A stretch of DNA of 64,000 bases from Halichondria panicea. Lineage: Eukaryota; Porifera; Demospongiae; Suberitida; Halichondriidae. The translations under genes and the position numbers were made by a program. The stretch covers positions 5,488,126-5,552,125 of the forward strand of contig NC_087391.1 of assembly GCF_963675165.1 (NCBI RefSeq). The letters run 5' to 3'. Shown here piece after piece: positions 29,345-63,070 of this stretch. The stretch's first letter is position 1. Each line of letters starts with the position of its first letter. Under the pieces are notes generated by a model. The model did not search any database, was not told the DNA's origin, and was given only the letters and a program-made list of their open reading frames with translations.

Positions 29345-29630
29345 GGAAGCCATACCTAAAAGTGGCTGATAAGTGTTTGTAGTGAGATCACACGGCTGCA
29401 CCGCTAGCTAAAATATTTGATCATGTGGTCTAGCCGCTAAGAAAACCACTTATCCAATGCAAACAACCACTTAGACAGCTGCACAAGTAGCTCATGTGTA
29501 ATTTGCCAGACGCTACCTCCGGGATGAAACGATTGGCTTGTGAGATTACTAACAAATAGGCTCTAGCAAATACAACCCTTTTCACCTCACTTGAAATGCA
29601 AATTTTATTAGAAAGTCAACTATAGGCTCT
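29345..29630. other. Non-coding segment downstream of exon 19 remnant
   Basis: Related to 35800-36110 and 46680-46985 (shared GTGGCTGATAAGTGTTTGTA, then CACTTATCCAATG). Intron sequence of the TDRD9 duplications; nothing else is seen. Confidence 0.6.
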
Positions 29631-29637
29631 GTACACT

Positions 29638-30050
29638 AGCTACAGTGTACACAGTGGGATCACACTATAGGCTCTGTACACTAGCTACAGTGTACACAGT
29701 GGGAACACACTATAGGCTCTGTACGCTAGCTACAGTGTGCACAGTGGGACCACACTATAGGCTCTGTACACTAGCTACAGTGTACACAGTGGGAACACAC
29801 TATAGGCTCTGTACACTAGCTACAGTGTACACAGTGGGACAACACTGTAGGCTCTGTACCGTGGCACTAGCTACAGTGTACACAGTGGGAACACACTATA
29901 GGCTCTGTACACTAGCTACAGTGTACACAGTGGGACCACACTATAGGCTCTGTACACTAGCTACAGTGTACACAGTGGGACCACACTATAGGCTCTGTAC
30001 ACTAGCTACAGTGTACACAGTGGTACCACACTACTGTAGGCTTTGTACAC
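29638..30050. repeat. 45-bp minisatellite, about 9 copies
   Basis: Unit begins CACTATAGGCTCTGTACACT and continues AGCTACAGTGTACACAGTGG plus 5 nt. Each unit contains TGTACACT-AGCTAC-AGTGTACA, an 8-bp inverted repeat. It lies in the intron directly after TDRD9 exon 18; the same repeat follows the other two copies of exon 18 with different copy numbers. Confidence 0.95.
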
Positions 30051-31256: not shown

Positions 31257-32706
31257 ATGTCTTCTGTACTCCTAATATTTTGCTGCCTCCTTGGTCTGGG
31301 GTCAGCCTGGAACCAACCGAGCACCTGCTATGTTAGGAGCCAATCCAGTGGAACCGAGACACAGCTAACAAAGATTAGTGAATCACTCGAATATCTATCA
31401 GAGCTGAAACACATTCGTGAAACACTGGAAACTATTGCCGACAGATTGCTGGGTAAGTACGTAACAATACTCACAGTCAAAAGTGACTCAAGTGTGTATA
31501 TTGCTATCCATGCATGTAACTACAATAATCTGTCTCTTAACTGTTGCAGATGCTGAAGGAAATGCAAGTGCACCAGTGTCAACTACCAGCATGCCAACAA
31601 CAGCCACATCAACCATGGAAGCAACAACTGCCACTACCAGTGAACCAACAGCAACCACATCAACCATGGAAGCAACAACTGCCACTACCAGTGAACCAAC
31701 AGCAACCACATCAACCATCGAAGCAACAACTGCCACTACCAGTGAACCAACAGCAGCCACATCAACCATGGAAGCAACAACTGCCACTACCAGTGAACCA
31801 ACAGCAACCACATCAACCATCGAAGCAACAACTGCCACTACCAGTGAACCAACAGCAGCCACATCAACCATTGAAGCAACAACTGCCACTACCAGTGAAC
31901 CAACAGCAACCACATTAACCATGGAAGCAACAACTGCCACTACCAGTGAACCAACAGCAGCCACATCAACCATGGAAGCAACAACTGCCACTACCAGTGA
32001 ACCAACAGCAATGACCACAGACCCACCAACTGCTTCTGACACTTGCGGTGGACCAGGATGGACAAGAGTGGCCTACATTAACATGACTGACCCCAACCAA
32101 CAATGCCCTCAAGGACTTCAACTGACAGACTATTCGATAAGATCATGTGGTCGTCCACCAACGTCTAGTGTTGGTGTTTGCTCATCTGTTACGTTTCCAG
32201 TGGGTTATGTCGAATACAGGCAGGTGTGTGGGAGAGCAGTAGGTTATCGATTTGGAGTAAACTACGCATTCTTTGGATACTATTTTCAAGGTAGGAATAC
32301 TATCGATGTTCACTATGTCGATGGACTCAGTGTCACGCATGGGCAATCTCCACGCACACATATCTGGACGTTTGTCAGTGGTCTGTACAATGGAACCAAT
32401 GGTGATCATAGCCCTCAAACGCGCTGTCCTTGTGATGAGGGGAACGGTTCTCCTCCATTCGTGGGAAATGACTACTTTTGTGATAGTGTGGCCACAGATA
32501 ATACCGGTTTTCGTTTCTATCCCGACAATGCGCTGTGGGATGGTCAGTTTAGCCTCAACACATGTTACAATTACAATAATCCTCCGTGGTTTACGAAAAC
32601 TCTATCAACTCCAACTACTGATGACATTGAGCTACGAATGTGCTTCCTTAATCACAACACATTTTCTAACATGGGACTTCAGCTCTTGGAACTATACATC
32701 AGTTGA
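31257..32706 (+). CDS. Secreted mucin-like protein, copy B (8 stalk repeats)
   Basis: Exons 31257-31452 and 31550-32706, 450 residues. Signal peptide MSSVLLIFCCLLGLGSA; helical segment with LTKISESLEYLSELKHIRE; then eight 17-residue repeats of the type TSTMEATTATTSEPTAT, about half Thr/Ser and likely O-glycosylated; then the same about 225-residue Cys-rich domain as copy A. Compared with copies C and D it lacks 3 nt in exon 1 (SQSSG instead of SQCSSG), losing one Cys. It is nested in TDRD9 duplicate block 2 on the opposite strand. Probably a secreted or matrix/mucus protein; partner unknown. Confidence 0.88.
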
Positions 32707-36125: not shown

Positions 36126-36220
36126 AACCACTAGCTACAGTGTACACAGTGGGACCACACTATAGGCTCTGTACACTAGCTACAGTGTACACAGTGGGAC
36201 CACACTGTAGGTTCTGTACA
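36126..36220. repeat. 45-bp minisatellite, about 2 copies
   Basis: Short version of the minisatellite found at 29638-30050 and 47010-47880, again directly after TDRD9 exon 18 (block 1 copy). Confidence 0.9.
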
Positions 36221-36829
36221 CACTTGAGGAAAATTAGGATAACGTATTTCAGCTTTTTGCCTCACCTGAATCATGAGATATTTGCTCATTGTGAGTTGCT
36301 TGAACCTGTCGTTTGCCTCAGCTGACCACTTGCCATCAGATGAGCTCTGAATGGTGGGTTTGACGGACGTGAGGAAACACTCGATGGCCTGCATATCGAG
36401 CTCTGTGTCACTGGAGGAGAGCTCACACAGTACACCAGTATTCACCATCTCCACGTTACCATAGTCCACAAATACCACATGGGCATACACCTGTGAGGGT
36501 ATGTGTGTGGGTGGTGTGAGGAGTGGGTATAGACATGTGAGGGTGTGTGGGTGTGAGGTTGTGAAGGTGTGGGTGGTGTGAGGTGTGGGTGGTACGTACC
36601 TCATTTGTCTCCTCGACGACCTCCATGCCAACGACCTTTGCCCGATAAAACAGCCCGTCCTCAGAGAAAGGGGAAAGACAGAACATGCCCTCCATCTTGG
36701 CTGGAGGACAAAGGAGCGGCTTCAGACTACGAGTGTTGATACTGTCCAGTAGCCATCTCATGTTCGTCGTGGCAACCTGGTCGACCAACTGGGCCCAGAA
36801 GTGGCCAGCATCAATGTACTGCAAGATAG

Positions 36830-37558: not shown

Positions 37559-40500
37559 ATGTCTTCTGTACTCCTAATATTTTGCTGCCTCCTTGGTCTG
37601 GGGTCAGCCTGGAACCAACCGAGCACCTGCTATGTTAGGAGCCAATGCTCCAGTGGAACCGAGACACAGCTAACAAAGATTAGTGAATCACTCGAATATC
37701 TATCAGAGCTGAAACACATTCGTGAAGCACTGGAAACTATTGCCGACAGATTGCTGGGTAAGTACGTAACAATACTCACAGTCAAAAGTGACTCAAGTGT
37801 GTATATTGCTATCCATGCATGTAACTACAATAATCTGTCTCTTAACTGTTGCAGATGATGAAGGAAATGCAAGTGCACCAGTATCAACTACCAGTGAACC
37901 AACAGCAGCCACATCAACCATGGAAGCAACAACTGCCACTACCAGTGAACCAACAGCAACCACATCAACCACGGAAGCAACAACTGCCACTACCAGTGAA
38001 CCAACAGCAGCCACATCAACCATTGAAGCAACAACTGCCACTACCAGTGAACCAACAGCAGCCACATCAGCCATGGAAGCAACAACTGCCACTACCAGTG
38101 AACCAACAGCAGCCACATCAACCACGGAAGCAACAACTGCCACTACCAGTGAACCAACAGCAGCCACATCAACCATGGAAGCAACAACTGCCACTACCAG
38201 TGAACCAACAGCAGCCACATCAACCATGGAAGCAACAACTGCCACTACCAGTGAACCAACAGCAACCACATCAACCATGGAAGCAACAACTACCACTACC
38301 AGTGAACCAACAGCAGCCACATCAACCACGGAAGCAACAACTGCCACTACCAGTGAACCAACAGCAGCCACATCAACCACGGAAGCAACAACTGCCACTA
38401 CCAGTGAACCAACAGCAACCACATCAACCATGGAAGCAACAACTGCCACTACCAGTGAACCAACAACACCCACATCAACCACGGAAGCAACAACTGCCAC
38501 TACCAGTGAACCAACAGCAGCCACATCAACCATGGAAGCAACAACTGCCACTACCAGTGAACCAACAACACCCACATCAACCATTGAAGCAACAACTACC
38601 ACTACCAGTGAACCAACAACACCCACATCAACCATGGAAGCAACAACTGCCACTACCAGTGAACCAACAGCAGCCACATCAACCATGGAAGCAACAACTG
38701 CCACTACCAGTGAACCAACAGCAACCACATCAACCATGGAAGCAACAACTACCACTACCAGTGAACCAACAACACCCACATCAACCACGGAAGCAACAAC
38801 TGCCACTACCAGTGAACCAACAGCAACCACATCAACCATGGAAGCAACAACTGCCACTACCAGTGAACCAACAGCAGCCACATCAACCATGGAAGCAACA
38901 ACTGCCACTACCAGTGAACCAACAACACCCACATCAACCACGGAAGCAACAACTACCACTACCAGTGAACCAACAGCAGCCACATCAACCATGGAAGCAA
39001 CAACTGCCACTACCAGTGAACCAACAGCAACCACATCAACCATGGAAGCAACAACTGCCACTACCAGTGAACCAACAACACCCACATCAACCATGGAAGC
39101 AACAACTGCCACTACCAGTGAACCAACAGCAGCCACATCAACCATGGAAGCAACAACTGCCACTACCAGTGAACCAACAACACCCACATCAACCATGGAA
39201 GCAACAACTGCCACTACCAGTGAACCAACAGCAGCCACATCAACCATGGAAGCAACAACTGCCACTACCAGTGAACCAACAACACCCACATCAACCACGG
39301 AAGCAACAACTACCACTACCAGTGAACCAACAGCAGCCACATCAACCATGGAAGCAACAACTGCCACTACCAGTGAACCAACAGCAACCACATCAACCAT
39401 GGAAGCAACAACTGCCACTACCAGTGAACCAACAACACCCACATCAACCATGGAAGCAACAACTGCCACTACCAGTGAACCAACAGCAGCCACATCAACC
39501 ATGGAAGCAACAACTGCCACTACCAGTGAACCAACAGCAGCCACATCAACCATGGAAGCAACAACTGCCACTACCAGTGAACCAACAACACCCACATCAA
39601 CCATGGAAGCAACAACTGCCACTACCAGTGAACCAACAACACCCACATCAACCATGGAAGCAACAACTGCCACTACCAGTGAACCAACAACACCCACATC
39701 AACCATGGAAGCAACAACTACCACTACCAGTGAACCAACAGCAGCCACATCAACCATGGAAGCAACAACTGCCACTACCAGTGAACCAACAGCAGCCACA
39801 TCAACCATGGAAGCAACAACTGCCACTACCAGTGAACCAACAACACCCACATCAACCATTGAAGCAACAACTACCACTACCAGTGAACCAACAACACCCA
39901 CATCAACCATGGAAGCAACAACTGCCACTACCAGTGAACCAACAGCAACCACATCAACCATGGAAGCAACAACTGCCACTACCAGTGAACCAACAACACC
40001 CACATCAACCATGGAAGCAACAACTGCCACTACCAGTGAACCAACAGCAGCCACATCAACCATGGAAGCAACAACTGCCACTACCAGTGAACCAACAACA
40101 CCCACATCAACCATGGAAGCAACAACTGCCACTACCAGTGAACCAACAGCAGCCACATCAACCATGGAAGCAACAACTGCCACTACCAGTGAACCAACAA
40201 CACCCACATCAACCATGGAAGCAACAACTACCACTACCAGTGAACCAACAGCAGCCACATCAACCATGGAAGCAACAACTGCCACTACCAGTGAACCAAC
40301 AACACCCACATCAACCATGGAAGCAACAACTACCACTACCAGTGAACCAACAGCAGCCACATCAACCATGGAAGCAACAACTGCCACTACCAGTGAACCA
40401 ACAACACCCACATCAACCATGGAAGCAACAACTACCACTACCAGTGAACCAACAACACCCACATCAACCATGGAAGCAACAACTGCCACTACCAGTGAAC

Positions 40501-42188
40501 CAACAGCAACCACATCAACCATGGAAGCAACAACTGCCACTACCAGTGAACCAACAGCAACCACATCAACCATGGAAGCAACAACTGCCACTACCAGTGA
40601 ACCAACAGCAACCACATCAACCATGGAAGCAACAACTGCCACTACCAGTGAACCAACAACACCCACATCAACCATGGAAGCAACAACTGCCACTACTAGT
40701 GAACCAACAGCAGCCACATCAACCATGGAAGCAACAACTGCCACTACCAGTGAACCAACAACACCCACATCAACCATGGAAGCAACAACTGCCACTACTA
40801 GTGAACCAACAGCAGCCACATCAACCATGGAAGCAACAACTGCCACTACCAGTGAACCAACAGCAGCCACATCAACCATGGAAGCAACAACTGCCACTAC
40901 CAGTGAACCAACAGCAGCCACATCAACCACGGAAGCAACAACTGCCACTACCAGTGAACCAACAGCAACCACATCAACCATGGAAGCAACAACTGCCACT
41001 ACTAGTGAACCAACAGCAACCACATCAACCATGGAAGCAACAACTGCCACTACCAGTGAACCAACAGCAACCACATCAACCATGGAAGCAACAACTGCCA
41101 CTACTAGTGAACCAACAGCAGCCACATCAACCATGGAAGCAACAACTGCCACTACCAGTGAACCAACAACACCCACATCAACCATTGAAGCAACAACTGC
41201 CACTACCAGTGAACCAACAGCAGCCACATCAACCATGGAAGCAACAACTGCCACTACTAGTGAACCAACAGCAACCACATCAACCATGGAAGCAACAACT
41301 GCCACTACCAGTGAACCAACAGCAACCACATCAACCATGGAAGCAACAACTGCCACTACCAGTGAACCAACAGCAGCCACATCAACCACGGAAGCAACAA
41401 CTGCCACTACCAGTGAACCAACAGCAGCCACATCAACCATTGAAGCAACAACTGCCACTACCAGTGAACCAACAGCAATGACCACAGACCCACCAACTGA
41501 TTCTGACACTTGCGGTGGACCAGGATGGACGAGAGTGGCCTACATTAACATGACCGACCCCAACCAACAATGCCCTCAAGGACTTCAACTGACAGACTAT
41601 TCAAGAAAATCATGTGGTCGAACACCAACGTTTGACGGTAGTGTTTGCTCATCTGTCATGTTTCCAGTGAGTGATGTCCAATACAGGCAGGTGTGTGGGA
41701 GAGCAATAGGTTATCGGTTTGGAAAACCCTTAGCATTCTTAGAATACCACATGTATGGTAGGAATATCGATGTTGCATATGTCGATGGACTCAGTGTCAC
41801 GCATGGGCAATCTCCACGCACACATATCTGGACGTTTGCCAGTGGTCTGTTCAATGGAACCAGTGGTGACATTTTCCCTAACTATCGCTGTCCTTGTGAT
41901 GAGGGAAATACATATGGTTCTCCTCCATTTGTGGGAAATGACTACTTTTGTGATAGTGTGGCCACACTTACTAACTATGGTGTAAACGGGTTTCGTTTCT
42001 ATCCCGACAATGCGCTGTGGGATGGTCAGTCGAGCCTCAACACATGTTACAATAACAATAATCCTCCGTGGTTTACGAAAACTCTATCAACTCCAACTAC
42101 TGATGACATTGAGCTACGAATGTGTTTCAATGATGACAGCACACATTCTAACATGGGACTTCAGCTCTTGGAACTATACGTCAGTTGA
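37559..42188 (+). CDS. Secreted mucin-like protein, copy C (70 stalk repeats)
   Basis: Exons 37559-37757 and 37855-42188, 1510 residues. Signal peptide MSSVLLIFCCLLGLGSA, helical segment, then 70 uninterrupted 17-residue repeats (spacing from first to last GAA of the EATT motif: 3519 nt, i.e. 69 times 51), then the Cys-rich domain (CGGPGWTRVAYINM to LQLLELYVS). Repeat variants are limited to a few positions: M/T/I before EATT, A or T in EATT(A/T)TT, and endings TAA, TAT or TTP. The stalk is about half Thr/Ser, so heavy O-glycosylation is expected. The frame is intact throughout. It lies in the exon 16/17 intron of TDRD9 duplicate block 1. It lacks the upstream TATA box of its paralogs. Confidence 0.9.
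37885..41475. repeat. Coding 51-bp minisatellite, 70 units
   Basis: Unit is ACATCAACCATGGAAGCAAC followed by AACTGCCACTACCAGTGAAC and CAACAGCAGCC, almost without indels. A higher-order period of seven units (357 bp) is visible: the rare ACGGAA...ACTACCACT variant occurs at 38941 and again at 39298, with the next three units identical in type. Confidence 0.95.
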
Positions 42189-44805: not shown

Positions 44806-47800
44806 CATAATTACCAGCAGGGACTCACTCTTTAATGAGGTTCCTTGCTTTCGTCTGGACCTCCTGCAACATGGTGTCATTCAACTCTCCAATAACATCC
44901 TCGTCCCCTACAGCGAGGTTGATCACCAGACGAAGGTTGTTCACCTGTGGAGTGGGCGTGTGTGTGTGTGTGTGGTACCAGTAAAGGTAGTGTATACATG
45001 TAGCTGCATGGCGAAATGCATATTGCAAACTAGTTTTCGTTTCCAGGAGCTATAGTGTTATAACAGACAAAGTGGCCAAAAACAAGGCAGTACCATTTTG
45101 AGGTCATCCTGTGAGATGAGGGTGTCAAAGGTCAACTCCATATCGTGCTCACTGTAGATGCTCTCATCTGTGTCCACATCGAAACCCAACCCACAAATGG
45201 CCCCAGTGTACTGACGCTTCAACTCATCAGCTCTGGAGAACAAAGCACGTGGAATATTACACCTGTTATAGTTGGAACATCTTTCAACAGCCATAAACTT
45301 GAATTCCGTTGATATAATCTAAACAATTTTATGATTTTCTGAAAGCTTGGGAAGAGACCTTTCAAATGGTACCATCAATAGTCATATTTGTAAGATCAGA
45401 AAATTTGCTGATTTCGGCCAAATACCATGGATTATAGCCCATGGTCCAAAGGCGAAAAATACCAAATTAGGGTCCCAAATAAATTTTGGATTGAAACACA
45501 TCATATGAAAGGTCTCTTTCTAAGCTTTCAGAAAATTTTGAAATTGGATCATCAGAACAAAAGTTAATGGCTATTGAAAGATGTTCAACTAGACCTGCAT
45601 ACACGCACGGCTTATAATAGCTACTAGCTAGCTACTAATACGTACATGTAGTACGCTCACCTCATCTCCACACAGGGTGCAAACAAAATGGCGACCAAGT
45701 GGAGGAGTGCAGGGATGTTGGGCATGAGGGTGGTGTGTCTAGCGATGCAGGTATTGCCTGAGGGGTTTAACGCCACATAGCCTGCCACCATCAGTCTGTC
45801 ACGACGGTCCTGTGGTTCACTGTTGACCACGATACAATTGACTGAGTCTCGCTCGATGCGAGCCTGTCGGTATCCCCCGGCAATGGTCATCTGGTGGAAG
45901 GTCACCTCGTACATACTGTCAGGACCTCTCAGCTCAAACTGAAGAAGAAAAAACCTGTTTATAAACTTTGCTTGCTTAGACATAAACCAAAATTATAAAT
46001 CTTGTAGGGATACTAAGTGCCTGAGGGATACTAGTCCCCAGAGGCACTTCTCCCTTGTATATCTAATCATCAACTAGTGTCTAACGTTTGTTTGTTCAAT
46101 GTCCCCACCTTCCTGCCTCTGGGGTACTTCTTGGTCCTGTCCTCCTCCAGCCAGGGGATGGTCTTGGTGGTGCTGGACTCGTACCTCCCTCCTCTACCCC
46201 CCACACTGGTCGAGGCCTCGGACGCCTGAGCTGCTAGAGTCTGAACGTGGGCAAACTGCACCGGGGGGTGGGGCGTTAGCATAATCAAGGCAATCATAAT
46301 AATTATACACAATCATAACTTGGAATACCTACATGTACTAATCTGTACAATAATTATTGATCAATTTTTGGTAGCTTCTTTGAGAGACCATAAGAAAAAG
46401 ACCAGCTACCAATACAGCTTCTACAATTAGACACAAGGTAGGCTAAAATCACAGCCAGACTCACCTTCGAGGGGTAGGGCTCCTCACAGTGGACAGCATG
46501 ACCTTCTTTCACAAGCACCTCGTTGATGAAGATGTCCTCCTGGCTTGTCGTATCGTACAAGTCGACACGTAGGGAATTCCCCACATGAGAGTACACCTGT
46601 GCAGGGATACAAGCGTTGTACAAGGGGGATTCCCCAACATGTCTAGAATAAATCATCACCTAACAGTTTAGTCATACGGAAGCCATACCTAAAAAGTGGC
46701 CAATTCACCGTACAGAGTCGTCCACACATAGTGGTGCTGTAAGTGGCTGATAAGTGTTTGTAGTAAGCTACTGTGAGATCACACATGCACACTTAGCTAA
46801 AATATTTGACAAATCTAATTAGCTGCTAGTAAACCACTTATCCAATGCAAACAGTCATTTAGACAGCTGCACAAGTAGCTCATGTGTAATTTGCCAGACG
46901 TTACCTCTGGGATGAAACGACTACCTTGCGAGACTACTAGCGGTTGTAAATTAATATGCTGTAATACAACCATTTTCACTTCACTTGAAATGCAAACTTT
47001 AAAGTCAACCACTAGCTACAGTGTACACAGTGGGACCACACTATAGGCTCTGTACACTAGCTACATGTACAGTGTACACAGTGGGACCACACTATAGGCT
47101 CTGTACACTAGCTAGCTACAGTGTACACAGTGGGACCACACTATAGGCTCTGTACACTAGCTACAGTGCACACAGTGGGACCACACTATAGGCTCTGTAC
47201 ACTAGCTACAGTGCACACAGTGGGGCCACACTATAGGCTCTGTATACTAGCTACAGTGTACACAGTGGGGACCACAGTATAGGCTCTGTACACTAGCTAC
47301 AGTGTACACAGTGGGACCACACTATAGGCTCTGTACACTAGCTACAGTGTACACAGTGGGGAACACAGTATAGGCTCTGTACACTAGCTACAGTGTACAC
47401 AGTGGGGCTACACTATAGGCTCTGTACACTAGCTACAGTGTACACAGTGGGGCCACACTATAGGTTCTGTACACTAGCTACAGTGCACACAGTGAGACCA
47501 CACTATATATAGGCTGTGTACACTAGCTACAGTGCACACAGTGGGACCACACTATAGGCTCTGTACACTAGCTACAGTGTGCACAGTGGGACCACACTAT
47601 AGGCTCTGTACACTAGCTACAGTGTACACAGTGGGACCACACTATAAGCTCTGTACACTAGCTACAGTGTACACAGTGGGACCACACTATAGGCTCTGTA
47701 CACTAGCTACAGTGTACACAGTGGGACCACACTATAGGCTCTGTACACTAGCTACAGTGTGCACAGTGGGACCACACTATAGGCTCTGTACACTAGCTAC

Positions 47801-50800
47801 AGTGTACACAGTGGGACCACACTATAGGCTCTGTATACTAGCTACAGTGTGCACAGTGGGACCACACTGTAAGCTCTGTACACACTTGAGGTAAACTAGG
47901 ATAGCGTATTCAGCTTTTTGCCTCACCTGAATCATGAGGTATTTGCTCATTGTGAGTTGCTTGAACCTGTCGTTTGCCTCAGCTGACCACTTGCCATCAG
48001 ATGAGCTCTGAATGGTGGGTTTGACGGACGTGAGGAAACACTCGATGGCCTGCATATCGAGCTCTGTGTCACTGGAGGAGAGCTCACACAGTACACCAGT
48101 ATTCACCATCTCCACGTTACCGTAGTCCACAAATACCACATGGGCATACACCTGTGAGGGTGTGTGGGTGGTGTGAGGTTGTGAGAGTGTGGGTGGTGTG
48201 AGGTTGTGAGGGTGTGTACCTCATTTGTCTCCTCGACGACCTCCATGCCAACGACCTTTGCCCGATAAAACAGCCCGTCCTCAGAGAAAGGGGCAAGACA
48301 GAACATGCCCTCCATCTTGGCTGGGGGACAAAGGAGTGGCTTCAGACTACGAGTGTTGATACTGTCCAATAGCCGTCTCATGTTCGTCGTGGCAACCTGG
48401 TCAGCCAACTGGGCCCAGAAGTGGCCAGCATCAATGTACTGCAGGATAGGTCAGTATGCGCAATGTGGCTTTAATTAAAGTAACAAGGTCAAACAAGAAT
48501 ATGAGCAATAAAGTTACAATAATCATCGTAAGAGTCATTGTCTGTTTTCTTACACTTAATGAACATACCGAATAATTAATTTTGTTGGTGAAAAAACTTT
48601 GCAAATGTTAGCGGATTATATTTTGCGTAGTGATGCTCACAAAACATTCTAGTAATACAATAATTATTATAAGACTTATTTTCGCAAAAATTTCATCAAA
48701 CACGGAAATCTCAATTATAGTTGTACGGTCTATTACCTCTATCGTGTCATGTTATGTGTGGGTGTTTCAAGTGTGCTAATTAAGTCTATAAAACGTGCAG
48801 AGCTACAGCAAACCGTATCCGACTGATTATCATCACACGTACGACACTGTCACTATTCCCGTGGAGACTATACTAACTATGTCTTCTGTACTCATAATAT
48901 TTTGCTGCCTCCTTGGTCTGGGGTCAGCCTGGAACCAACCGAGCACCTGCTATGTTAGGAGCCAATGCTCCAGTGGAACTGAGACACACCTAACAAAGAT
49001 CAGTGAATCATTGGAACATATTCGTGAAGCACTGGAAACTATTGCCGACAGATTGCTGGGTAAGTACGTAACAATACTCACAGTCAAAAGTGACTCAAGT
49101 GTGTATATTGCTATCCATGCATGTAACTACAATAATCTGTCTCTTAACTGTTGCAGATGATGAAGGAAATGAAAGTGCACCAGTGTCAACTACCAGCATG
49201 CCAACAGGAGCCACATCAACCATGGAAGCAACAACTGCCACTACCAGTGAACCAACAGCAGCCACATCAACCATGGAAGCAACAACTGCCACTACCAGTG
49301 AACCAACAGCAACCACATCAACCATGGAAGCAACAACTGCCACTACCAGTGATCCAACAGCAACCACATCAACCATGGAAGCAACAACTACCACTACCAG
49401 TGAACCAACAGCAGCCACATCAACCATGGAAGCAACAACTGCCACTACCAGTGAACCAACAGCAGCCACATCAACCATGGAAGCAACAACTGCCACTACC
49501 AGTGAACCAACAGCAGCCACATCAACCATGGAAGCAAAAACTGCCACTACCAGTGAACCAACAGCAGCCACATCAACCATGGAAGCAACAACTGCCACTA
49601 CCAGTGAACCAACAGCAATGACCACAGACCCACCAACTGCTTCTGACACTTGCGGTGGACCAGGATGGACGAGAGTGGCCTACATTAACATGACCGACCC
49701 CAACCAACAATGCCCTCAAGGACTTCAACTGACAGACTATTCGATAAGATCATGTGGTCGTGCATCAACGTCTAGTGGTGGTGTTTGCTCATCTGTCATG
49801 TTTCCAGTGGATGGTGTCCAATACAGGCAGGTGTGTGGGAGAGCAATAGGTTATCGGTAGGGAACCAACTACGCATTCTTTGGATACTACCATGGAGGTA
49901 GGAATACTATCAATGTTGGATATGTCGATGGACTCAGTGTCACGCATGGGCAATCTCCACGCACACATATCTGGACATTTGCCAGTGGTCTGTTCAATGG
50001 AACCGGTAACGGTTATTCTCACCTGCGCTGTCCTTGTGATGAGGGGAACACTTATGGTTCTCCTTCTCCTCCATTTGTGGGAAATGACTACTTTTGTGAT
50101 AGTGTGGCCACACCTAATAACTGGAATGTAAACCCGAATCGTTTCTATCCCGACAATGCGCTGTGGGATGGTCAGTCCAGCCTCAACACATGTTACAATA
50201 ACAATAATCCTCCGTGGTTTACGAAAACTCTATCAACTCCAACTACTGATGACATTGAGCTACGAATGTGCTTCCATAATCCCAACATACATTCTAACAT
50301 TGGACTTCAGCTCTTGGAACTATACATCAGTTGAAGTGATTGTGAATGAATATTTGCTGAGAGCTTTTAGTTTATTAACAAACTCTCTTAGTTTAGCTGA
50401 GTGAGAACATGAACACTACAAGTGAACTCTACCTAGCATTCTCGTATTGTAGACTATAGCTATAAAAGTTTGTTGCATGTTTGAAAAAGATCAAAGAAGC
50501 CACAGCGCAACTATTTTCATTTAGATCACAGTCGTATGATGTACTATTACTGCACTGGAATTGTAAAGCAGTGCAATAATAGCGTATCACATCCGGACCA
50601 GTACTACATGCGGCTTGTTTTCGAATAAAGGCCGCGGCTAAAATGTTCAGTCCTCTCTGTCCTTGTGATGAGGGGAACACTTTTGGTTCTCCTCCATTGA
50701 CTACTTTTGTGATAGTGTGTAATTACATACCTCAGTGATGACAATCTGCTTAGTGCCACTATCAGGGAGCTTCATCTCCTTCAGTGCCCCGGCTCTAATT

Positions 50801-59362: not shown

Positions 59363-59411
59363 TAGTCTCATGAATCAGCAGCACCTTTGGTGCGGCTGAT
59401 TCATGAGACTA
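59363..59411. repeat. 49-nt near-perfect hairpin between SYVN1 and the selenoprotein gene
   Basis: TAGTCTCATGAATCAGC pairs with GCTGATTCATGAGACTA (17 bp), then one A/G mismatch, then GCACC/GGTGC with a TTT loop. It lies about 160 bp after the SYVN1 stop and about 110 bp before the next ATG. Possible terminator-like, small-RNA or MITE structure. Confidence 0.85.
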
Positions 59412-59521: not shown

Positions 59522-60511
59522 ATGGACCCAAACTCCAAAGAAAAGAAGCTGGTTTTTGCTACCCAACAGCTCACTGCTAAACTGACCACAGTGGTGACAA
59601 GCTGTGCCAAGGAGATAGAAGAAGACGGTGCACTGCAGTTCAGCAAGAACTCTGGACGACGTGACAAGGGGATCATGAAAGCAACCCTACCCATCATGCT
59701 CGCTTATTGTGACTGGCTTATGGCTGTTGGTGTCAAAACTAGACAGCAAATGAAAGATATCTGGGAGAAATTTGTCGACAACAAGGACGTGCGGGACTGT
59801 GTGGAAGAATTGAAGCAAGCAGAAGAAGCTTTCAACTCGTTGCTGGAGGGGGTGAATGAAGTTGTGCAAAAGGACGAAGAAATTACGGTATGCATGAGCA
59901 TTTTGATTGTTTTGTATTTTACTTTTTTCCTTGTGCAGCTAAAGTCCTTAGAGACAGTTACGAGGGGAGGAGTCCTACCGACGACATTACCACTGCAGGA
60001 TCTGGATACTGGAGCTCAAATCATTACGGGAGATATTTTGAGAGATCCTTACACTCTGTTCATTTTGAACCGGAATCTTTCCTGAGGTCCATGCAACAAA
60101 CACATTCAGGCTGTTCAAGCAGCATTGGGAGATTTCGAAAAACTTGGTTGTCGAGTAGTTTTGGTATTTAGTGGATCGAGGAAAGACACATTATTGTGGG
60201 AGGAACAGAATGAACGAATCAAAATGGCCAAATTTGTAGACGCTAATTGGTTGCTGTATCGCAAACTCAATCTCCGACGGCATGTGGACATACTCACGTC
60301 ACACAATATGTGCAAATATGGAGAGCAAATGGTTGGTGGTGGCGAGTCACCTTCGAGCTCCGTACAATATCCAGATGATGACCTTTGGATCATGGGTGGA
60401 GATTTTATAGTCACACAAGACGGCCTTCTGGTGTATGCATATCATCAGCGAACCTTCTACCAAAGGCCAGCTGTAGAAGAGCTGCTCGATGCTTTGAAAG
60501 CTCACAATTAA
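59522..60511 (+). CDS. Selenoprotein, AhpC/TSA-2-like thioredoxin fold with U-G-P-C centre
   Basis: Two exons (59522-59887 and 59939-60511) give 312 residues if TGA at 60083-60085 is read as selenocysteine (residue 171). The TGA occurs as LNRNLS-U-GPCNKHI, i.e. a U-x-x-C redox motif like the CGPC of thioredoxins. Both sides are in the same frame, and the downstream part is conserved in type: KLGCRVVLVFSGSR, FVDANWLLYRKLNLRR, MGGDFIVTQDGLLVYAYH, RPAVEELLDAL, which fits peroxiredoxin-like AhpC/TSA-2 proteins (PRXL2 type). Without recoding the product would stop just before the active site. A SECIS-like stem lies at 60554-60622. The N-terminal 122 residues are helical and not recognised. Role inferred: redox or peroxide reduction. 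No upstream in-frame ATG is closer to SYVN1. Confidence 0.85.
60083..60085 (+). other. In-frame TGA, predicted Sec codon
   Basis: TGA followed by GGT CCA TGC, giving U-G-P-C. Single in-frame stop in an otherwise open 573-nt exon. Confidence 0.82.
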
Positions 60512-60553: not shown

Positions 60554-60622
60554 GTCTCATTTTTGATGTCAGTTGCTTAAATCTCCTAGGAGCTAGTTGC
60601 TGACTGAAATTGTTTATGAGAT
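60554..60622 (+). promoter_or_regulatory. SECIS-like element in the 3' UTR
   Basis: Stem order: helix I GTCTCAT (60554-60560) with ATGAGAT (60616-60622); internal loop; 5' core TGAT (60564-60567) and 3' core TGAA (60605-60608); helix II GTCAG (60568-60572) with CTGAC (60600-60604) plus weaker pairs above; AAA at 60579-60581, 11 nt after the 5' core; then a CTC/GAG mini-stem as in form II SECIS. It starts 43 nt after the stop codon. The base before TGA is T rather than the usual A or G, which is a weakness. Confidence 0.72.
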
Positions 60623-61164: not shown

Positions 61165-62878
61165 TCAGATGACATTAGTAGCACTGGAAGTGCTGTCTGA
61201 GCTACCATAATAGAAATTCTTAAGTCCCTTGTAGTAGCCACGATCTTGTACAGTGTTCAAGTGACTATCAAACTGAAATATAAGTTTAGCCCATCGAGGG
61301 GCGAACAAAACCATGGCACCTACGTTAGCTAATAAATCAAATACCAGCAAAAATGCAGTAACTACACGATGCTTATAAAGGGGATTGATAAATGCGATTA
61401 TGAAGACCACTAAAGGAAGATAACAAAACCATATGATATACATAAACGATAAAGAGAAATAGAGCTTCAACTTCTCAGGTCGATTTTCAACGAGATAAAT
61501 CTGTCTCATTTCATAGAGAATGTAGGCCAGGAGTGCAAGTCTATAGGCAAGGTAGAGAGCCCCCGGCCAGCTCTGGAAGGTGTGGTTAGTCCAAATAGAC
61601 AGGGGAAACACTTGATTCTGAACCTGGGCCGGGGAAAAAAGAGACACAATGTGAACACCTATATGCACAAGACTGTGTAGTAGTGCGAGCAGTAGTGTAA
61701 AATTATGTTTAAAATGGCACAAAATAGCGGAAAAATGCATCACTTATAACAAATACACACAATCTTCCATACAACAATACAACACACAGTACATCTGTAT
61801 ATACACTCACAACAGCCCAAATGAAGTACACAGAGAAGAAGACCACATACGCTCCCCATACTCCAAACGTGAGTTTCTTCCAGCGTAGAGCACTGTCTGT
61901 CACCATCCAGCCCTTACCGATGAGCAATAGCACAAGAATCAGCAGCCAATCGGAAAACTGGTTGAACACCTCTCCCAAGAACAAGCACCATACCGCTCCA
62001 AACCCATCACCAGCGAACACAGCATAATGGATCAGTTCAAATATCACATGAAGGAACTCCAGCACCAGAGATGCAGTGAATATAGCTGGTAATAGATGCA
62101 TCCTTCGAAAACCTATCGCGGACGTTTTGCACCATTTCCCGCAGAGTCCAAAGTGCATTGCGAGATGTATGGAGAGCAGGGCCAGGTATACAACGGAGAA
62201 CAATAACTGCATGAGTAGTACTCCCTCCAGCTCAAGCGAAAATTGGTAGACGAATGGATTCAAGTGGGTGTTGTTTTCCGGATCTGAGTTGACAAGACTT
62301 ATATCGTACCAGAGAGTACTATTTTCCGTTTCACTCCATTTACAGCTGGATGAGTAGTTGCGATCACAAGCCAACATGAAGAGATAGTAAAATTCAGTTT
62401 TTGGAGATTCTTTTACGCGAAAAGTGAAGTCATTTCCAGGAACTACACGAATGGAGTTGGGTTGGTTACAAGATAATGGGTCTTGATTGTTGCATGGAAG
62501 CCTTCTGATGTAGTCCTTCATTCCACTGGGGCAGGTATGGTCGTCCACTGAAATACTCTCGTTGAGAACCGACTCAAACACTGCGTTGCACGACATTACG
62601 CCATGCTTAGCTACGAGACTGTCAGAAACATCCTGAGGTACAAGCACTAACAACAATCCAGATCGTATCGTGACAAAGAGATCTTCCGTTTTAACGGACC
62701 CAAATACATACAAATTTTGACCAGAAGCAACTCCAAACTTGGCTAAATAGTACAGGGGGGCATTGTTGTTCCTGTCATCTGTAGGCAAAGGAGAATGTTT
62801 TGTAACACCACTGACTCTTGTCCCAGCAGACAGCTTGCACACTAGCAGGAGGAGCAGGGCAACTGGCAAACCACCCAT
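61165..62878 (-). CDS. GPR180/TMEM145-like seven-transmembrane protein
   Basis: Two exons (61811-62878 and 61165-61623) give 508 residues. Signal peptide GGLPVALLLLLVCKLSAG; an about 200-residue extracellular domain with paired Cys (TCPSGMKDYIRRLPCNNQ, CDRNYSSSCKW) and several N-glycosylation sites; then seven hydrophobic segments (for example LEGVLLMQLLFSVVYLALLS, WLLILVLLLIGKGWM, FMYIIWFCYLPLVVFIIAF). FGVASGQNLYVFGSV, KGWMVTD and WFCYLPLVV fit the GpcrRhopsn4 family (GPR180, TMEM145). Start at 62878 is preferred because the signal peptide follows directly; an in-frame ATG at 62983 would add 35 residues. Function in relatives is poorly defined (signalling or trafficking). It is divergent from the gene at 63071. 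Confidence 0.88.
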
Positions 62879-63070
62879 GGCATGCCGGTTAGCTAGCTGT
62901 ACACTTCTAAACCTTATCTTGTGAATCTCTAGTTTGGTTTCATACCATGTGACTGTTGACGAGCCCCTCCCCCTCAAAGCCATTAGACTAAAAATCTAGC
63001 TAGCTGCAGGAAACAGAAGGATGTTTATATACTTTTGATGATCTCTAACTGTATCTAGCCGAGCTGCAAG

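Follow-up and report, generated by a model that had tools for sequence, protein, structure and literature searches.

A truncated gene of the sponge Halichondria panicea probably encodes a SelL-related selenoprotein with a UxxC redox motif

Gene structure and current annotation

The window analyzed here, a single stretch of 64,000 nucleotides, derives from the demosponge Halichondria panicea (order Suberitida; contig NC_087391.1, C15 in our numbering of the 39 contigs of its genome, which total 131,455,214 bases) and carries LOC135349389, a gene whose reading frame is crossed by one TGA codon. We propose that this TGA is very probably read as selenocysteine (Sec, U), yielding a longer redox protein. 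An earlier note on this DNA had placed an ATG at 59522, the TGA at 60083 and a TAA at 60509 in one frame, and all three are present in the sequence. The 141 sense codons from the TGA to the TAA would remain open by chance with a probability of ~3e-4 at the base composition of the window, or 1e-3 with equal codons, both figures being for one given frame, uncorrected for the window's many frames. In the genome, this frame also passes without a stop through a short GT-AG intron, whose removal leaves two coding exons with 312 codons in all (Table 1), with the TGA as codon 171 in the context S-U-G-P-C, in agreement with the product length and position first proposed. The motif codons are TGA GGT CCA TGC, which corresponds to UxxC.

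A search using the redox-domain profile recovered the protein P0108, the NCBI entry “uncharacterized protein LOC135349389 [Halichondria panicea].” This entry is identical to residues 1–170 of the spliced frame and ends exactly at the TGA; the splice is thereby supported, and the current annotation is seen to terminate there. The gene, initially described as unannotated, is thus annotated but cut at 170 residues, and the public record drops its catalytic half. A variant copy (P0002), differing at 3 of 187 residues, has the same stop codon, which counters a sequencing error at the TGA. An intron excising the TGA found no sign either, as the annotated splice lies upstream and the two paralogues described below align through the motif. 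Bacterial contamination was rejected on the basis of the GT-AG intron, a eukaryotic-type match to a Sec insertion sequence (SECIS), and the 131-Mb genome.

Table 1. Features of the gene within the window
Feature	Position	Strand	Remarks
Coding exon 1, with the start codon and, as residues 1–122, the N-terminal domain	59522..59887	+	Identical to residues 1–122 of P0108
51-nt GT-AG intron, in frame and stop-free	59888..59938	+	Missing from annotated spliced P0108; no matching 17-residue insert in either paralogue
Coding exon 2: residues 123–312 and TAA; SelL-related / AhpC-TSA_2 redox domain	59939..60511	+	
TGA, codon 171, putative selenocysteine	60083..60085	+	TGA at the same column in both paralogues; SECIS downstream
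TGC, Cys174, second position of U-G-P-C	60092..60094	+	TGA at this position in both paralogues
SECIS element in the 3′ untranslated region; UUGA core, AAA bulge, apical mini-stem	60554..60622	+	Rfam SECIS_1; fold −19.6 kcal/mol

Redox domain and paralogues

The earlier expectation of an AhpC/TSA-2 domain downstream of the TGA was borne out by Pfam, where AhpC-TSA_2 (PF13911) scored 30 bits on this part against a cut-off of 27, and by the modeled domain, which adopts a peroxiredoxin/PRXL2 fold like that of human prostamide/PGF synthase (9us9). The sole NCBIfam match of the protein at E 0.001 is NF040769, “SelL-related redox protein” (76.3 bits, E 2.1e-21, 161 residues), a model that was also matched by all 37 of the family members scanned. 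The preceding N-terminal domain of ~120 residues was compared with Pfam in eight members, and nothing better than E 0.0028 was obtained (TENA_THI-4, in one member, below cut-off; cut-offs were given for the first member only). Its fusion to such a redoxin had been thought unfamiliar; the domain recurs in both paralogues and in five N-terminal pieces of other origin and so is not confined to this gene.

Searching the genome with the spliced protein returned the gene itself, in two exons, together with L019 (on C16, 34% identity) and L020 (on C9, 32%). Both paralogues are open over their full length except for two TGA codons each and lack the 17 residues that the intron would add. Their motifs read HYV-TGA-CGC-CCG-TGA and HFG-TGA-TCT-CCC-TGA, respectively, so that both TGAs fall in the redox motif and L019 and L020 are UxxU where the window gene is UxxC. 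The column of residue 171, which the earlier note had singled out for comparison among relatives, is accordingly occupied by TGA in both. Under the strict test for SelL, which asks for UxxU, the two paralogues pass and the window gene, not being SelL in that strict sense, fails.

SECIS element and selenocysteine machinery

The selenoprotein reading gains a structural component from a SECIS match, not mentioned in the earlier note, that begins ~40 nt 3′ of the TAA on the coding strand (Rfam SECIS_1, 31.4 bits, E 1.5e-4 for 321 bases). In its fold, an internal loop containing UGA and GA separates a lower from a second helix, and beyond these come an unpaired AAA and a mini-stem. A genome-wide SECIS_1 search at E ≤10, in which 133 of the 1782 first-look candidates were scored, gave three matches, namely L014 (33.6 bits), that of the window gene, and L016 (21.6 bits), and the chance expectation of any of the three lying ≤1 kb downstream of the stop is 1.1e-5. 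The best of them, L014 (G000:C4:7065201-7065267), serves as a positive control, as it lies behind exons of a Sec-type glutathione peroxidase with a TGA in NVASKUG (by eye); upstream of L016 no obvious selenoprotein was seen. A pattern scan of the 700 nt after each stop, devised after the SECIS elements had been seen, found the highest-scoring SECIS-like hairpin 52 nt (window gene), 52 nt (L019) and 49 nt (L020) downstream, and for the two paralogues 0/300 and 0/300 dinucleotide shuffles were as good. The SECIS of the window gene is identified by place and fold together, not by curated score.

The machinery for Sec was searched as tRNA-Sec, SepSecS and the SelD family, with 14 prokaryote genomes as controls. 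The tRNA-Sec search gave nine matches at E 0.001, four of them over cut-off, the best on C17 (73.4 bits, with a TCA anticodon by eye); as this search also matched in 14/14 controls and exceeded the cut-off in 5, only above-cut-off matches count. A cluster on C8 (L007–L010 and L013; G000:C8:5704687-5706891) holds six tRNA-Sec-like matches, three over the Rfam cut-off, which may be tRNA-Ser or copies. SepSecS gave six exon matches over cut-off, one of which contains a TGA (3/14 controls were also over), and an exon beside the SelD matches reads KGUGCKVPQEEV with TGA at the U. We take this exon to be SPS2, in which Sec occupies that place. In the genome, Sec machinery is present as tRNA-Sec, SepSecS and an SPS2 exon of the Sec type.

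Relatives and conservation beyond the TGA

Three protein searches yielded 2, 8 and 103 matches. Eight aligned N-terminal pieces, of which one is the window gene and two are paralogues or a near-copy, all stop at one column directly before the Sec, and P0002, outside the alignment, does likewise. Four of the 103 matches span the motif: P0003 (WPPW), P0011 (WRPW) and P0010 (WPPC), together with P0109, which is a distant peroxiredoxin and has Cys. We read the W in the first three as probably the source's tryptophan translation of TGA; P0011 groups with L019 (support 100/98), which has TGA at both motif places. Four further matches are N-terminal pieces (P0002, P0004, P0107 and P0108), and the other 95, including parts of the three H. 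panicea genes themselves (P0019, P0015 and P0013), are 108–141 residues long with empty motif columns. Since such gene calls also break at introns, pieces of this kind are weak evidence when taken alone; the database pieces suggest that the loss seen in LOC135349389 occurs across the family.

The tree comprises 101 rows from 109 proteins and the 3 genes (omitting P0001, P0002, P0107, P0108, P0004–P0009 and P0019); P0005–P0009 were misplaced in the main alignment, with stray residues in the motif columns, and were read from the N-terminal alignment instead. The window gene pairs with its nearest relative, P0042, at 57% over 128 columns (support 99/91), so that conservation continues beyond the TGA, and a lack of such conservation, which the earlier note had named as fatal to its proposal, is not the case. 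A 17-row clade (100/100) holds the window gene, P0042, P0003 and P0010, within which the UxxC of P0010 and that of the window gene do not fall together. Resolution within this clade is poor, and the window gene forms a long branch in a tree built on few columns, so that either motif may be ancestral. Scans of prokaryote genome contigs and of viral contigs gave no confirmed relative.

Weighing the readings

Taken together, SECIS placement, the Sec machinery, conservation past the TGA and the shared TGA column of the paralogues uphold the selenoprotein of the earlier note. We put the probability at roughly 93% that the gene encodes a 312-residue demosponge selenoprotein, a SelL-related, peroxiredoxin-like redoxin with an N-terminal domain of ~120 residues and Sec at UGA 171 via the SECIS. 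Several results weigh against it. The SECIS_1 score lies under the Rfam gathering score of 35, so that a whole-window Rfam search at gathering scores listed nothing, and SECIS_1 (E up to 10) also matches in 4/14 prokaryote controls, none over cut-off. The core reads UUGA instead of the usual AUGA or GUGA; excerpts of Jiang et al. give AUGA, with GUGA in sponges and some algae (PMC3473315), and a full-text literature search found no paper joining SECIS, UUGA and selenoprotein. In the pattern scan, 7/300 dinucleotide shuffles of the window gene's 3′ untranslated region score as well, and an Rfam search of those of L019 and L020 gave no SECIS match, their hairpins coming from pattern scan and folding. 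The SelD family is represented by two exon matches, both below cut-off, with matches in 14/14 controls, two of which exceed it. Finally, the NF040769 score is under the curated cut-off of 120, which makes the protein a significant relative rather than a member.

The NCBI annotation of 170 residues would be correct if the TGA were a true stop and what follows it belonged to another gene or were left over from a pseudogene, which we regard as very improbable: truncation would fall inside the thioredoxin-like fold of the model, the part it removes is open and conserved, both paralogues have TGA at the same column, and a SECIS match follows. Slightly less remote, yet still improbable, is assignment to SelU/PRXL2, a family that has UxxC in an AhpC-TSA_2 domain, as would the window protein, for which PF13911 passes its cut-off. 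Human PGFS, whose family was put in SelU3 according to excerpts of Jiang et al. (PMC3473315), shares the fold. Against SelU stand the UxxU of the paralogues, the SelL-related model as sole NCBIfam match and the N-terminal domain common to the paralogues, the separation being one of motif and models rather than of sequence comparison. The nearest contender concerns naming within the sponges. There is a real, if somewhat less than even, chance that the window gene is one of the sponge “AphC-like” selenoproteins instead of a member of the SelL branch, or that both names denote one family. Suberites belongs to Suberitida together with Halichondria. According to excerpts of Jiang et al. (2012; PMC3473315), Amphimedon has three of these AphC-like proteins, two of which have two coding exons like the window gene, and more occur in Oscarella and Suberites. 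The SelL-related NCBIfam model and the UxxU of the paralogues, which is that of SelL, speak for the SelL branch.

Proposed mechanism

For the SelL-related selenoprotein that we favor, the ribosome would insert Sec at UGA codon 171 under the direction of the SECIS hairpin in the 3′ untranslated region. Sec171 is predicted to sit just ahead of a helix in the thioredoxin-like fold, at the place of the first Cys of a CxxC, where it would act as nucleophile with Cys174 as resolving partner, as expected from SelL and SelU. The protein would then most likely cycle between selenol/thiol and selenenylsulfide (Se-S), reducing peroxides or disulfides, and the UxxU paralogues could form a diselenide, a bond that a single motif Sec would not be expected to give. 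We consider it an even bet that a broader picture holds, in which three or more paralogous selenoredoxins of two domains each (two UxxU, one UxxC) provide diselenide and selenenylsulfide versions in one animal, with an N-terminal domain unrecognized by Pfam, most of the database relatives seen being pieces broken at the motif in the way expected of Sec genes, and a UUGA core serving in one SECIS.

Other features of the window

A 23-nt inverted repeat (59363–59411; 96% complementary, 3-nt loop) lies just upstream of the gene, and downstream a minus-strand frame at 61712–62983 carries a GPR180/TMEM145 transmembrane domain. Elsewhere, a 51-bp (17-codon) repeat forms three arrays (37887–41477, 31594–32011 and 49201–49617), the longest with ~70 copies inside a 1466-residue open frame without a Pfam match; by eye, the unit is Thr-rich with a mucin-like look. 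A 45-bp repeat forms three more (29619–30050, 36129–36221 and 47010–47883), with up to 19 copies.

Comparison with known systems

A literature search combining Halichondria panicea and selenoprotein surfaced, in the excerpts returned, work on elemental composition alone. SelL-like proteins in which one or both Sec are replaced by Cys were reportedly described in a 2007 abstract by Shchedrina et al. Among the closest known systems is SelL (SELENOL). Shared with it are a peroxiredoxin-like domain, Sec as the first of two redox residues that stand two residues apart, a single SECIS in the 3′ untranslated region and occurrence in an aquatic animal, and the H. panicea genome holds two UxxU paralogues besides. 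As excerpted, SelL has two Sec two residues apart with one SECIS for both (PMC3316567), whereas the second Sec of the window gene is Cys. NF040769 itself was built for bacterial and archaeal proteins. SelU/PRXL2, including human prostamide/PGF synthase, differs in that the window protein has an extra N-terminal domain and the NCBIfam model named is SelL-related.

Further afield, excerpts describe algal AhpC_b with UxxC (PMC7539508) and prokaryotic peroxiredoxin-like selenoproteins with UxxC and UxxU (PMC2398784, PMC13188914 and PMC9312934); these resemble the window protein in joining a peroxiredoxin-like or AhpC-TSA domain to UxxC but belong to algae or prokaryotes, the likeness being one of description. 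The sponge AphC-like proteins share the phylum, the thioredoxin-like fold, Sec and, for two of the three in Amphimedon, the exon number, and differ, again by description in excerpts, in SECIS cores of GUGA against the UUGA seen here (PMC3473315). The same source reports one SelL beside them in Amphimedon. With sponge SelL and AphC-like selenoproteins already in print, the corrected gene adds to a known kind, as a putative single-Sec SelL-related protein beside double-Sec paralogues, which would make a natural setting for comparing Se-S and Se-Se redox centers.
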